Part shown: positions 13,465 through 40,461 of the stretch, piece after piece
How the letters are laid out: every line of letters starts with the position of its first letter
Numbering within the stretch: the stretch's first letter is position 1
Origin: an uncultured Bacteroidales bacterium
GTDB lineage: Bacteria; Bacteroidota; Bacteroidia; Bacteroidales; Paludibacteraceae
Assembly: GCA_946403215.1 (NCBI GenBank)
Contig: CAMIZG010000002.1
Coordinates: 1 to 64,000, forward strand
Length of the DNA: 64,000 nt
Reading direction: 5' to 3'
Position numbers and translations under genes: made by a program
Notes under the pieces: model-generated
Database searches by the model: none
What the model was told of the DNA's origin: nothing
What the model saw: only the letters and a program-made list of their open reading frames with translations

Positions 13465-13660
13465 CATATGACGTAAACGGGAGGAAAACTTGACGAACAC
13501 TCGAAATCCTAACTCTATGCCCAGTTCAAGAAACCCGACCCAGAAGCGCCTTTCGAGAAAAAACTGCGTCCCGGCGCATCCAAACTCTACCGGAAGCAGT
13601 ACTCCAAACTCGACACATTCATCCAAGCCCTCCTTCGCCAAAAAACAGCAATAAACAACT

Positions 13661-13708
13661 AAAAATCCCGCAAACCCTTGCACATGTGGGATTTTTTTTG
13701 TACCTTTG
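13661..13708 (+). promoter_or_regulatory. Hairpin-embedded promoter
   Basis: AAAAATCCCGCA / TGTGGGATTTTT stem; TTG in loop; TACCTTTG after the T-tract. Confidence 0.7.
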
Positions 13709-15676: not shown

Positions 15677-17017
15677 TTAGCCGATTTTGCGGTAATGACC
15701 ATGTGATATTTTAGTGATTAAACCATCACGAAGCCAAATGCCAGTCCAACGGTAGACTGTGCGTTCAGGTACGCCATGTGCTACTGCTTGCGCGAGAACA
15801 TTTCTCGTCTCAAACTCGGGTTGGAGGGCGGAGAAGAGAAGTTGCTTTTGGAAGCTGGTTTGGATGGCAGGGACGAGTTCGGTGGTAGCGCCATTGATGA
15901 GGCGGTAGGCAGCTGCCATGTGGAGGATGAGTTTGCTGCCGATGAGCTCGGCGGTGAAGTAATCGGCATCGGAGCAGTATAATCGCCCATGTATGGTAGA
16001 TGCATCCTCAGCGGAACTGATGTCCGAATTGGATTCGGACACAACAGGCAAAGTATCTCGCTCATGGAAATCGCGAGTACAGAACACCCGCAACGCGGAT
16101 AATATCATAGCGATGCGCTCGATTTGGATTGCCATCCTCACTACCGCCGAGTGGAAGTTCTCGCCCAGCATACTGATCAGCGCCTTATACTCCGTACTCA
16201 AGTGCTCCGCTAAGCGGCTCTTCTGCTCCTTGGTAAGTGTCCACTCCTGTTCAGGATTGCTATGCAGCCGTTCACATAATCTTGCCAACAGTTGACCGAC
16301 TTGCCTGCTGACAGGCTCAGCAGGAGATTCCGCTTCAACATATCGCCTGTCGAACGCCTGCGTATCACGTACGATAAACGGTAACAGACGTGAAAAGTAA
16401 CCATTCTCGATGCTCGGCACGAGGTGATGGTACTGACTAAACGTGCCTGTAAGCAGAACCGACAACTGCGGGCAGGGAATAACCTGCATCTCTTTCACGC
16501 GGTTATGGCTGACTGTTTCGTGTTCAGCCGCCTTGCGCAGGATGGAGTTGTAAGTAGCGGCCTGTGACTTCCAGATGTCGGTAATCACAGAGCCCTCACT
16601 TTCATGTACATAACCCCGACCGCCGTTCTCGTATAGCCGCTTAAAGAACGCAGGAAACGTGCTGTCGCCCGGGATGAGTGTCGGATAGATTGCTTCCACT
16701 GGGCGCACCATCTCCAAAGCCTGACTCGCGATACCTTTGCCGCTTGCAGCCGCAGCGAGGATGAAACATTGCAGGTTGGCGTAATACTTCTTACCCGTCA
16801 TTCCATAGCGGAAGTACAGGTTTGGCAGACAGGCGCTGGTGGCCGTGAGGGTAGCCATAAGCAACATATCCCGTTCGGCAGGTGTTGCGGCTTGCGAGAG
16901 CATCTTTTGCAACGTCTCAGGCAGTGCAGAAAGGTTCAGGTACTCGACGATACGCAGATCGTCAATGTCTTGGCTGTCCTGTGCCGGCTCAGCCGGTACG
17001 ATTAGGTTTGTGTTCAT
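15677..17017 (-). CDS. DUF3987-containing protein
   Basis: ASACLPNLYFRYGMTGKKYYANLQCFILAAAASGKG...HESEGSVITD. Confidence 0.75.
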   Translation of the reverse strand: MNTNLIVPAEPAQDSQDIDDLRIVEYLNLSALPETLQKMLSQAATPAERDMLLMATLTATSACLPNLYFRYGMTGKKYYANLQCFILAAAASGKGIASQALEMVRPVEAIYPTLIPGDSTFPAFFKRLYENGGRGYVHESEGSVITDIWKSQAATYNSILRKAAEHETVSHNRVKEMQVIPCPQLSVLLTGTFSQYHHLVPSIENGYFSRLLPFIVRDTQAFDRRYVEAESPAEPVSRQVGQLLARLCERLHSNPEQEWTLTKEQKSRLAEHLSTEYKALISMLGENFHSAVVRMAIQIERIAMILSALRVFCTRDFHERDTLPVVSESNSDISSAEDASTIHGRLYCSDADYFTAELIGSKLILHMAAAYRLINGATTELVPAIQTSFQKQLLFSALQPEFETRNVLAQAVAHGVPERTVYRWTGIWLRDGLITKISHGHYRKIG

Positions 17018-17533
17018 AGATTAAAATTAGTTTGATAAATGTGCAGTTGTTCGAAGGGCAAAACAACACCTCTCTATATATCATACACCACGTTGCCCGT
17101 ATTGAGAACTGAAGTGATAGCGCTCAAAAACATATGCCCCTCTATAATATAGTCACACGGCTATAACCTTCAGAGGGGGATTTTGGTGGATTTTGGCTAT
17201 AAAATGGTGATTTTTTCAAGACTTGTTAGTATTTTTTAACATTATTGCGAGGCGTAGTTTGAATTATTGCAATCTTATTTGATAATCAGATTGATAGCAT
17301 GCGTAAAATTGTTGATTTCCGCGTATGCAGGTATCAAAAACCAATCAAATCAGTTCAAAAACGCCCCAAAACGGTCAAAAAATACAAAAAAATCACATTT
17401 TTGGTTTTGTGCATAAAAATTTGCACTTTTTTTGTCGAAAATCCAAAATCTGCTACAAATATACGTTAAAGAAATTGTGCTTTCCAAATCTGTTTGCGTA
17501 ATTTTGCATTTTTTGTTATTTTTTCATTCTTCT

Positions 17534-17565
17534 CTTGCAAATGTGGGATTTTTTTTGTACCTTTG
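17534..17565 (+). promoter_or_regulatory. Promoter with conserved GCAAATGTGGGATTTTTTTTG spacer
   Basis: CTTGCAAATGTGGGATTTTTTTTGTACCTTTG; same spacer as 34059 but without the 5' hairpin arm. Confidence 0.65.
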
Positions 17566-31255: not shown

Positions 31256-32108
31256 TGGAAAGAAACTGGCAGAGGAGATCCGTTCCTCTCTCCGCGAACG
31301 AATATATGCGTTACAAAGCCGCTACGGCCGTGTGCCGTGTTTGAGCGTGTTACTCGTAGGCGATGACTACGGCAGCCAGCGTTATGTGACAGCTTGTGAA
31401 AAGAATGCTGCATTCGTCGGACTTACCTGCCGTGTTATCCGTATGCCTGAGGATAGTACGGACCAGCAGGTGCTCGCGCAGGTTAGCGCGCTCAATGAAG
31501 ATAATCAGGTAGATGCCATCCTCGTCCAGATGCCCCTGCCCAAGCATATATCCCAAGCAAAAATTGTTGCGGCACTCAGTCCCGCCAAGGATGTAGATGG
31601 CGTGACAGATACCAATGTGGCTCAACTCTGGAAACAGAAAAGAAACGACTACAGCCGTTTCTCTGTGCCCTGCACGCCGCGTAGCGCCATGCGTATTCTC
31701 GAAGCCTCGGGTATCAACCCCGATGGCATGAACGCCGTTGTCGTTGGCCGTAGTAATATTGTAGGCTTGCCTGTCGCCAAACTATTGATGAACGCCAACG
31801 CTACTGTTACCGTTGCGCACAGCCACACACGCGACCTGCCTGCTGTCCTGCGCCGCGCAGACCTCATCGTAGCGGCTATCGGTCAGCCTAAGTTCATCAC
31901 AGCCGACATGATCTCCGATGGTGCCGTAGTTATTGATGTAGGTATCAATAGCGATCCTGCTACCGGCAAATTATGCGGCGACGTGGACTTTGAGCACGTG
32001 GCACCCAAATGTCGCTTCATCACTCCCGTTCCGGGTGGAGTTGGACCACTCACGATCTGTTCCCTGATGGAGAACGCCATCGACTGTTTCCTGCGCCTGC
32101 ATGCTTAG
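31239..32108 (+). CDS. folD: Bifunctional methylene-THF dehydrogenase/methenyl-THF cyclohydrolase
   Basis: VGDDYGSQRYVTACEKNAAFVG; VVGRSNIVGLPVAKLL; TPVPGGVGPLTI. Confidence 0.95.
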   Translation: MENCFDGKKLAEEIRSSLRERIYALQSRYGRVPCLSVLLVGDDYGSQRYVTACEKNAAFVGLTCRVIRMPEDSTDQQVLAQVSALNEDNQVDAILVQMPLPKHISQAKIVAALSPAKDVDGVTDTNVAQLWKQKRNDYSRFSVPCTPRSAMRILEASGINPDGMNAVVVGRSNIVGLPVAKLLMNANATVTVAHSHTRDLPAVLRRADLIVAAIGQPKFITADMISDGAVVIDVGINSDPATGKLCGDVDFEHVAPKCRFITPVPGGVGPLTICSLMENAIDCFLRLHA

Positions 32109-33367
32109 GCGCGTCCTGCATGCTTATCCCGGCGCATGCCTGGTTTATGCCCGCGGCCCGAATGCCTATGGCCGCCGTTATGGCGCTTGTTACCGTTGTG
32201 GCTGGGCTGTGCGTACAGGCTGTTATCAGGCGCGTCCCCCAGTGACGATGGCAAGGTCAGACGCTGGATATCTTTTTGCAGGAACCGTTCAATCTTTCCC
32301 CAGTACCGCGCATCTTCCGGACTGACCAGGGTGATCGCCTCGCCCTTGTTCTCAGCGCGTGCCGTACGACCTATGCGGTGCACGTAATCCTCTGCATCAC
32401 GCGGTACGTCGAAGTTGATTACCAGCGGTATATCATCTACATCGATCCCTCGCGCCACAATATCCGTGGCAACCAGTACATCCACCTTGTTGTTTCTGAA
32501 GTCCAGCATCACCTCGTCGCGTTGTTTCTGCTCCAGATCGCTATGCATGGCGCGTGCGTTCAGACCCTGGCGACTGAGTAGCACGGTCAGTTCTTTCACT
32601 CGTTGCTTCTTGCCCACAAACAGGATGACCTTGCTCAGTTTTGCCTCTTTCAGTCGCTCGATGATGAACGGGATCTTCTGTGTCTCATAGCAGCACAGCG
32701 CGCGTTGGGCTATACTCTCCGGCGGACGGGATATAGCTATCTTAACCTCAGCCGGGTTGTTCATAATCTTCCTGGCCATCTTGCGGATATTGTCGGGCAT
32801 AGTGGCGGAGAACATAATGGTCTGTCGGTCTTTTGGCAGGCAGTCTACTATCTTCATTATATCGTCGTAGAAACCCATATCGAGCATCCGGTCGGCTTCG
32901 TCCAGAATGAAGTACTTCACGCCCGAAAAGTCGATATCCATGATGTTCATATGACTGAGCAGTCGTCCCGGAGTGGCTATCACAATATCTGCACCCGTCT
33001 TCAGTCCGTTGGCCTGGACGGAGAAGTTACCGCCATCGTTGCCGCCATATACGGCTACCGACGAGAAAGGCACGTAGTACCCGAAACCCTCCATCTGCTG
33101 GTCGATCTGTTGCGCCAGTTCGCGTGTAGGAGCCATGATGATGGCGTTGAGTTTGTTCGGATCGTGATGGTCGTACTGCAGGTTAGTCAGTAGTGGCAGG
33201 ATATACGCGGCAGTCTTGCCCGTGCCGGTCTGCGCACAACTGATCACATCCCTGCCTTCAAGCAGCACAGGGATGGTCTGCTCCTGCACCGGAGTGCATA
33301 CGTCAAAATGCATATCCCACAATGCGTCCAGCACTTCGTCTGATAGAGGGAGTTCGTCAAAATACAT
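32105..33367 (-). CDS. DEAD-box RNA helicase
   Basis: AQTGTGKTAAY, DEAD, SAT, HRIGRTAR motifs; basic His/Gly-rich tail. Confidence 0.95.
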   Translation of the reverse strand: MYFDELPLSDEVLDALWDMHFDVCTPVQEQTIPVLLEGRDVISCAQTGTGKTAAYILPLLTNLQYDHHDPNKLNAIIMAPTRELAQQIDQQMEGFGYYVPFSSVAVYGGNDGGNFSVQANGLKTGADIVIATPGRLLSHMNIMDIDFSGVKYFILDEADRMLDMGFYDDIMKIVDCLPKDRQTIMFSATMPDNIRKMARKIMNNPAEVKIAISRPPESIAQRALCCYETQKIPFIIERLKEAKLSKVILFVGKKQRVKELTVLLSRQGLNARAMHSDLEQKQRDEVMLDFRNNKVDVLVATDIVARGIDVDDIPLVINFDVPRDAEDYVHRIGRTARAENKGEAITLVSPEDARYWGKIERFLQKDIQRLTLPSSLGDAPDNSLYAQPSHNGNKRHNGGHRHSGRGHKPGMRRDKHAGRA

Positions 33368-33458
33368 GGTGTTGTTACTGTAATAAGTTCATTTTCATTT
33401 GCAAAATTACGAAAAAAAACGCATATTTGCAAAAAAAATAAAAAAAATCCCACAAAAA

Positions 33459-33490
33459 TTTGCAAATATGATTATTTTTTTATACCTTTG
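33459..33490 (+). promoter_or_regulatory. Promoter TTTG / TACCTTTG
   Basis: 24-nt spacing; divergent to helicase promoter-like sequence on the other strand. Confidence 0.65.
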
Positions 33491-33595: not shown

Positions 33596-33973
33596 ATGAA
33601 AAAGTTCCTTTATGTAGCCGTTATGGCAGTTGTAACGCTCGCTTTCACAGCTTGCAAGTCGAATCTCGGTACCAGTGCTGACTATGCTGAAGGTAAGACA
33701 GTTGTTATTAATGAAGAAAAGGGCACCGTTAATGGTGTTAAGTATGACAACACGAAGGAGATGTGCTGGGCTTGGACCATCAACGAGAAGACCAATGGCG
33801 TAGAGGTTAAGTTAACCTACTACGTATGGGCTACCGAGTTCCATCTCGTTGCTACCTGCGAGATGGAGATGTACGAGTGCTCACGCAGCGGCCGTATAGC
33901 TTCCTACGCTTACATCCAGGCTCCTAAGTCTCTGCAGTCGGAGAGCGCTTGCGAGAATGCTAACAACCAATAA
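33596..33973 (+). CDS. Lipoprotein-like hypothetical
   Basis: MKKFLYVAVMAVVTLAFTACKSNLG; 125 aa; ~100-nt 5' UTR. Confidence 0.6.
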   Translation: MKKFLYVAVMAVVTLAFTACKSNLGTSADYAEGKTVVINEEKGTVNGVKYDNTKEMCWAWTINEKTNGVEVKLTYYVWATEFHLVATCEMEMYECSRSGRIASYAYIQAPKSLQSESACENANNQ

Positions 33974-34041
33974 GCAAGCAGCACCTAAGCTCATAGAGCG
34001 ATTCAATCGCACGAGCTAAGCAAGATTTTCAAAAAAATCAA

Positions 34042-34090
34042 AAAAAATCCCACAAAAATTTGCAAATGTGGGATTTTTTTTGTACCTTTG
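34042..34090 (+). promoter_or_regulatory. Hairpin-embedded promoter upstream of pgk
   Basis: Perfect AAAAAATCCCACA / TGTGGGATTTTTT stem; loop AAAATTTGCAAA contains TTTG; TACCTTTG at 34083. Confidence 0.75.
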
Positions 34091-34183: not shown

Positions 34184-35437
34184 ATGATGACAATTGACAA
34201 TTACAAGTTCGCCGGAAAGAAGGCGATTGTACGCGTGGACTTCAATGTACCACTGGATGAGAATGGTAACATTACTGACGACACCCGTATCCGCGGTGCC
34301 CTGCCTACCCTCAAGCACATTCTCGACGAGGGCGGTGCGCTGATTATTATGAGCCATATGGGCAAGCCCAAAGGCAAGGTGGCTGCCAAGTACAGCCTCG
34401 GTCAGATCAAGGACGCCGTAGCCAAGGCGCTCGGCGTTGCAGAGGTGAAGTTCGCTCCCGACTGCGCGAAGGCACAGGCAGAGGCTGCTGCCCTCAAGGC
34501 CGGAGAGGTGCTGCTGCTGGAGAACCTGCGCTTCTATCCCGAAGAGGAAGGCAAGCCTGTAGGCATCGAGAAGGAAGACCCTGCTTACGAGGCTGCCAAG
34601 AAAGAGATGAAAGCCCGTCAGAAGGATTTCGCCAAGGTGCTGGCATCGTATGCTGACTGCTACGTGATGGATGCCTTCGGTACCGCTCACCGTAAGCATG
34701 CTTCGACAGCCGTTATTGCTGACTACTTTGATGCCGACAACAAGATGCTCGGCTATCTGATGGAGAAAGAGGTGAAGGCTGTTGACAATGTGCTGTCCGA
34801 CATCAAGCGTCCGTTCATCGCAATCATGGGCGGCTCGAAGGTTAGTTCCAAGATCGGCATCATCGAGAACCTGCTGGGCAAGGTGGACAAACTCATCCTT
34901 TGCGGCGGTATGACCTACACCTTCGCCAAGGCGCACGGTGGTGAGATAGGCGAGTCCATCGTCGAGATGGATAAGCTCGACGTTGCTCTGGGCGTTGAGG
35001 AGCTGGCTAAGAAGAACGGCGTAGAGCTTGTGATGGCTCCGGATGCTATCATCGCCGATGACTTCTCTAACAACGCCAACACCAAGGTTGCTCCGTCCAA
35101 CGCTATCCCCGCAGGTTGGCAGGGCCTGGATGCCGGACCTGAGGCACAGAAGAAGTTCGCAGCAGCCATCAAAGGTTGCAAGACCATACTCTGGAATGGT
35201 CCTGCAGGCGTATTTGAGTTCGACAACTTCTGCGCCGGCAGCCGCGCTATCGGCGAGGCTATTGCTGAGGCTACCGACAATGGCGCCTTCTCGCTCATCG
35301 GTGGTGGTGACTCTGTTGCTTGCGTCAACAAGTTCGGTTTGGCTGACCGCGTATCGTACATCTCCACCGGCGGTGGTGCCCTGCTCGAGGCTATTGAGGG
35401 TAAGGTGCTCCCCGGCGTAGCTGCCATCAAAGGATAA
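34184..35437 (+). CDS. pgk: Phosphoglycerate kinase
   Basis: RVDFNVPLD...[10 protein letters not shown]-like [10 protein letters not shown]...[14 protein letters not shown]. Confidence 0.95.
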
Positions 35438-39870: not shown

Positions 39871-39902
39871 TTTGGATATATCAAAAAAATGTAGTATCTT
39901 TG
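39871..39902 (+). promoter_or_regulatory. tRNA-Pro promoter TTTGGATATATCAAAAAAATGTAGTATCTTTG
   Basis: 24-nt spacing; ~52 nt upstream of the tRNA. Confidence 0.75.
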
Positions 39903-39953: not shown

Positions 39954-40027
39954 CGGGATGTGGCGCAGTCCGGTAGCGCAACGGTCTGGGGGACCGGAGG
40001 TCGCAAGTTCGAATCTTGTCATCCCGA
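39954..40027 (+). tRNA. tRNA-Pro (GGG anticodon)
   Basis: CGGGATG...CATCCCG acceptor, CTGGGGG anticodon loop, GCAAGTTCGAATCTTGT T-arm; CCA not encoded. Confidence 0.9.
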
Positions 40028-40412: not shown

Positions 40413-40461
40413 AAAAAAATCCCGCAAAATTTGCAAATGTGGGAATTTTTTCGTAAATTTG
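40413..40461 (+). promoter_or_regulatory. Hairpin-embedded promoter upstream of TonB receptor
   Basis: AAAAATCCCGCA / TGTGGGAATTTTT imperfect stem, TTTGC in loop, TAAATTTG at 40454. Confidence 0.65.

Follow-up and report, generated by a model that had tools for sequence, protein, structure and literature searches.

A probable intrinsic terminator built into the sigma-ABfr-type promoter of pgk in an uncultured Bacteroidales bacterium

Genome diagrams and annotations usually treat the terminator and the promoter as two distinct modules. DNA shared between the two is found in the frd/ampC overlap of E. coli, where a terminator and the promoter region of the neighbouring gene occupy common sequence, the shared hairpin lying downstream of the ampC promoter and acting also as an attenuator. 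The sigma-ABfr promoter of Bacteroidota, described in B. fragilis and B. thetaiotaomicron, consists of a -33 TTTG and a -7 TAnnTTTG (PMC7366714). In E. coli, a terminator within several bp of a stop codon is repressed, with efficiency rising with distance (PMC4824070), and RNA polymerase that has stopped at an intrinsic terminator remains DNA-bound and is able to start again close by (PMC6978380, PMC6978322). No fused terminator-promoters were found for Bacteroidota in the open-licence papers searched. The data below indicate that one lineage repeatedly merges both modules in about 45–50 bp.

The element considered here lies at 34036–34090 of a 64-kb stretch of DNA (64,000 nucleotides, hereafter the window). 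It is followed by pgk, encoding phosphoglycerate kinase (34184–35437; PF00162, E = 4.6e-143), and preceded by a gene for a 125 aa protein with no Pfam match (33596–33973), whose transcript is presumed to end at the hairpin; this gene is on the same, plus strand as pgk, and 110 nt separate its end from the -7 element. A preliminary description had laid out the element as a stem, a loop holding the -33 TTTG, a T-tract spacer and TACCTTTG at 34083, and the sequence is as described. The left stem arm, an A-tract plus TCCCACA, occupies 34040–34054 and the right arm, TGTGGGATTTTTTTT, 34067–34081, both assigned from sequence and fold and covarying with one another. Between them RNAfold places the loop AAAATTTGCAAA (34055–34066), within which the TTTG at 34059–34062 agrees with the promoter consensus. 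The last eight bases of the right arm (T8, 34074–34081) would be the U-tract of the terminator as well as the promoter spacer, the 3' flank of the hairpin reading T8-G, and the -7 element TACCTTTG (34083–34090), again consistent with the consensus, is located about 100 nt 5' of pgk. The stem contains 15 perfect pairs; RNAfold closes 16 and predicts a single hairpin with a 12-nt loop at -18.6 kcal/mol (z -5.3), a value equalled by 0 of 200 dinucleotide shuffles. A stable stem with a G/C core directly abutting a T-tract, behind a codirectional gene, is characteristic of intrinsic terminators, and TAnnTTTG with TTTG about 20 nt 5' is characteristic of sigma-ABfr promoters. The loop exceeds the length of about 3–9 nt seen in intrinsic terminators, which is a tendency and no strict requirement; at 12 nt it is long for a terminator and counts against the terminator reading. 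The element was not reported by a simple terminator scan, in which loops of only 3–8 nt were allowed.

To place the pgk promoter among others of its kind, 2.11 Mb of the 2.20 Mb host genome was scanned, promoters being defined by consensus only. The pattern TTG-N20-TAnnTTTG was present at 384 sites compared with 17 for the reversed pattern. Alignment of 391 promoters revealed a rigid layout with A/T tracts upstream about every 10 bp, a G/C slot at approximately -33 to -31 relative to TA, TTTGCAAAT, an A/T-rich spacer and then TAnCTTTGC. The pgk element matches this layout, and its right arm and T-tract are therefore mostly ordinary promoter sequence; the complementary left arm is what turns the pgk promoter into a terminator. 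As a separate observation, G+C content between -80 and -25 of the promoters varied from roughly 0.1 to 0.5 with a period of ~10 bp, and strongly phased A/T tracts lay upstream of nearly all promoters. Divergent promoter pairs under 150 bp, of which there are 70 genome-wide, showed discrete TA-to-TA distances (33–34, 64–65, 73–77, 83–86, 95–98 and 104–105 bp), a spacing in approximately helical (10-bp) steps, with only 3 same-strand pairs that close. At 33 bp the palindromic -33 box TTTGCAAA is common to both promoters of a pair. Divergent pairs in the window are 33409(-)/33483(+) and 55310(-)/55374(+).

Pairing between a left arm upstream of the -33 box and a right arm in the spacer was assessed for 389 distinct promoters, with right halves shuffled among promoters as the null. 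Perfect stems of -11 kcal/mol or lower were observed 19 times against an expectation of 6.2 +/- 2.1, and those of -14 kcal/mol or lower 10 times against 1.3. These stems were diverse (TCCCACA/TGTGGGA, TCCCATA/TATGGGA, TCGACA/TGTCGA, TGACAT/ATGTCA and TCCCGAA/TTCGGGA), nearly all of the strong ones adjoined a run of 6–8 T, and the genes downstream of hairpin promoters were unrelated (pgk, GHL10, Na+/H+ antiporter, RseC, MMPL, PdxJ and RelA/SpoT). With genes called by a simple home-made codon model (1673 genes), strong-stem promoters were tandem to divergent in a ratio of 15 : 1, compared with 114 : 154 for the other promoters (P = 4e-5). At an RNAfold MFE of -10 or lower, 23 hairpins were observed in tandem promoters where shuffled halves gave 5.2; in divergent promoters no excess was detected at this threshold (6 observed, 4.5 expected). 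This excess suggests that ~18 of 139 tandem promoters (13%) are fused beyond chance. Exceptions exist in the form of a few hairpin promoters with a divergent upstream gene, for example at C26:10706. The upstream stop codon was at a median distance of 79 nt from hairpin promoters and 131 nt from others, and a separate terminator was present at 1 of 20 hairpin promoters compared with 31 of 108 others.

Within the window, the similar elements that had been noted at 13661 and 40413 are both real. The former (13661–13708, plus strand) is a second fused element 5' of an FMN reductase gene, with the stem AAAAATCCCGCA/TGTGGGATTTTT folding at -13.8 kcal/mol and a codirectional eroded ORF ending at 13662; the tail of this eroded gene, ...SKLYRKQYSKLDTFIQALLRQKTAINN*, can be followed over about 13513–13662 and ends right at the element. 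A third and weaker fused element, containing one A-A mismatch (40413–40461, plus strand; -11.4 kcal/mol), lies 5' of a TonB-receptor-like gene. Upstream of it are a plus-strand tRNA gene (39954–40027) and, beyond that, a minus-strand gene; a promoter-like site was seen at 39895, 5' of the tRNA gene, and about 385 nt without a predicted gene separate the tRNA from the element. Two other plus-strand promoters carry one arm each. A near-copy at 33436–33490 (promoter 33483) has just the left arm and folds at -0.3 kcal/mol, and at 17515–17565 (promoter 17558) only the right arm is present, with a fold of -3.4 kcal/mol. Both fold poorly and both have divergent upstream genes, a DEAD helicase gene (32105–33367) and the gene at 15677–17017, respectively. 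The neighbouring promoter segments 33440–33468 and 34041–34069 are identical over ~28 nt (A-tract, TCCCACA and AAAATTTGCAAAT) with a hairpin in one only, possibly as a result of local duplication or conversion.

Orthologues of pgk provided a natural experiment. At locus L236 pgk is 94% identical, the hairpin is identical and the upstream gene is tandem, being an orthologue (73% identical) of the gene at 33596–33973. At L178, where pgk is also 94% identical, the closest gene on the upstream side encodes tRNA-Met and lies on the other strand; here the right arm TGTGGGATTTTTTTTGTACCTTTG is intact but the left arm is missing. L177 and L205 have a divergent upstream gene, and neither has a hairpin at pgk. 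In most congeneric species pgk closely follows another gene and has no promoter motif of its own, so that these promoters are uninformative. Conservation of the left arm among homologous promoters, on which the preliminary description had made its reading depend, was found in part: the arm is kept beside a tandem neighbour (L236) and is missing at the loci whose closest upstream gene points the other way (L178, L177 and L205).

Covariation of the two arms was apparent in 61 congeneric genomes, where AATCCC..GGGATTTTT..TAnnTTTG occurred 38 times, AATCGA..TCGATTTTT..TAnnTTTG 11 times and the mixed arm combinations 0 and 0 times (Fisher P = 3e-11, an optimistic value since the genomes are related; as elements may also have been duplicated, the counts are only partly independent). 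Pairing is thus kept via compensatory change, as in intrinsic terminators. A search of GTDB species genomes with one strict form of the element returned 23 DNA stretches, all from Paludibacteraceae or (uncultured) Bacteroidales and several with ruminant isolate names. Treated as independent loci, 22 of the 23 distinct sites have a codirectional upstream gene (binomial P = 3e-7), mostly 43–114 nt away. The flanking DNA of the sole exception, L231, is closely similar to that of the window element at 13661, and since an eroded codirectional ORF reaches the 13661 hairpin, it is probable that a codirectional gene, now decayed, preceded both sites when they arose. The earlier proposal of a reusable compact terminator-promoter, which predicts hairpins only behind a codirectional gene, is borne out both in the host genome (15 : 1) and at the independent loci. 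Beyond the genus, the exact TCCC/GGGA form was not found in a 247-genome survey of the order. A looser form (G/C stem, T-tract and TAnnTTTG at fixed spacing) was represented 48 times among the matches listed for 149 genomes of the order, compared with 8 among those listed for a scrambled -7 motif (TAnnTTGT), a difference that could in part reflect promoters being common just behind terminators. Many of the listed looser-form matches were perfect hairpins with other stems, and TTG at the ~-33 distance was present in 9 of 42 distinct ones. Judged by these motif matches, a terminator directly adjoining a -7 element seems to be common across the order, and full interlocking is established in this genus of Paludibacteraceae-like rumen Bacteroidales alone.

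Hairpins of this kind could arise accidentally from promoter composition, given the upstream A-tract, the palindromic -33 box and the T-rich spacer. About 5 of the 23 hairpins in tandem promoters, and all of the divergent ones, are expected from shuffling, and spacer T-richness, taken as a sign of termination, did not differ between tandem and divergent promoters. However, when subsets with T-rich spacers or A-rich upstream regions were shuffled within class, tandem hairpins still numbered 14–16 against 3–4 expected with no divergent excess, and mixed arms are missing from the 61 genomes. Chance complementarity as a full account is ruled out by the excess over shuffled halves together with the covariation; it covers a minority of weak cases, and is very improbable as the origin of the element. 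A different role for the hairpin, in which it marks or protects the upstream mRNA at its 3' end once Rho or processing has acted and does not terminate by itself, would equally require a codirectional upstream gene and covariation. This is considered improbable, as almost every strong hairpin runs directly into 6–8 T, the layout of an intrinsic terminator, and a further terminator is seldom present at hairpin promoters.

The palindrome surrounds a promoter box, the usual position of an operator, and exact copies of TGTGGGA are present in several promoters, on occasion by itself, as might be seen if a dimeric regulator bound TCCCACA-N12-TGTGGGA across the -33 box. Yet the single conserved half-site and coherent gene set typical of one regulator were not observed; stem sequences vary widely, the downstream genes have no shared theme and an operator has no reason to depend on the direction of the upstream gene, making this quite improbable. 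The preliminary description had further suggested that extrusion of a cruciform or hairpin could gate the access of sigma, in this reading by concealing or uncovering the -33 box. The perfect inverted repeat, whose loop contains the -33 box, would suit this, and promoter regions of E. coli are enriched in inverted repeats that could form cruciforms (PMC6060812). Such gating predicts independence from neighbour direction and should serve promoters with divergent neighbours equally, yet the stem excess was found only in tandem promoters. Loops of 11–13 nt, the size present in these elements, also disfavour extrusion, and the suggestion is regarded as extremely improbable. Operator and cruciform are both disfavoured because neither would lead one to expect stems that vary, downstream genes that are unrelated or a hairpin that depends on the orientation of the upstream gene.

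The pgk element is very probably an intrinsic (Rho-independent) terminator of the upstream gene built into a sigma-ABfr-type pgk promoter. From the computed layout, folding, covariation, dependence on neighbour direction and recurrence in other species, we infer that polymerase would actually both terminate and initiate at this site. The TCCCACA/TGTGGGA hairpin would form in the RNA of the gene at 33596–33973 when RNA polymerase arrives at the T-tract, and the transcript would be released at about 34076–34083. As duplex, the same DNA would serve as the pgk promoter, with the -33 TTTG in the loop, the T-tract as spacer and TACCTTTG at -7, and the pgk start is expected a few bases past 34090. 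The standard arrangement of these promoters (A-tract near -38, G/C slot near -33, TTTGCAAAT and T-rich spacer) would already provide most of a terminator, and selection would need only to pair the G/C slot with the first spacer bases, presumably behind a codirectional gene. The spacing between stop codon and hairpin is in keeping with the stop-codon repression of terminators in E. coli (PMC4824070). Since the upstream RNA would be released with polymerase positioned on the spacer of the next promoter, and since E. coli polymerase can restart nearby, direct reinitiation may be possible in principle. Polymerase that had just shed the upstream RNA on the T-tract spacer, over the -33 and -7 boxes, might reinitiate there and couple neighbouring genes without cotranscription, although such a relay from terminator to promoter is unlikely.

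The presence of the hairpin follows neighbour direction, which makes these promoters a clean natural experiment on the evolution of intergenic regulatory DNA. If working as predicted, the fused elements would offer compact parts for Bacteroidota genetics, would explain gene ends missed in these genomes by terminator finders with short loop limits, and would be a natural setting for asking whether terminated RNA polymerase passes to an adjacent promoter.

In comparison with known systems, the element resembles intrinsic terminators in its G/C-containing stem flush with a U-tract shortly past the stop codon of a codirectional gene, and bidirectional terminators in the A-tract on its 5' side, but its loop of 11–13 nt is constrained by a promoter box and its U-tract is also a promoter spacer. 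With sigma-ABfr promoters it shares both boxes and an AT-rich spacer, whereas behind a codirectional gene it has, in addition, complementary arms in the spacer and in the region upstream. As in frd/ampC, a terminator and the promoter region of a neighbour lie on common DNA; here, however, the hairpin spans the -33 box and spacer, and the element belongs to a recurring class in contrast to one locus. Post-termination reinitiation (PMC6978380, PMC6978322) offers a parallel in that terminated polymerase may restart at a nearby promoter, where the distance between terminator and promoter is expected to matter. That work concerned E. coli polymerase, mainly on templates with separate elements, whereas in the pgk element the distance is effectively zero.
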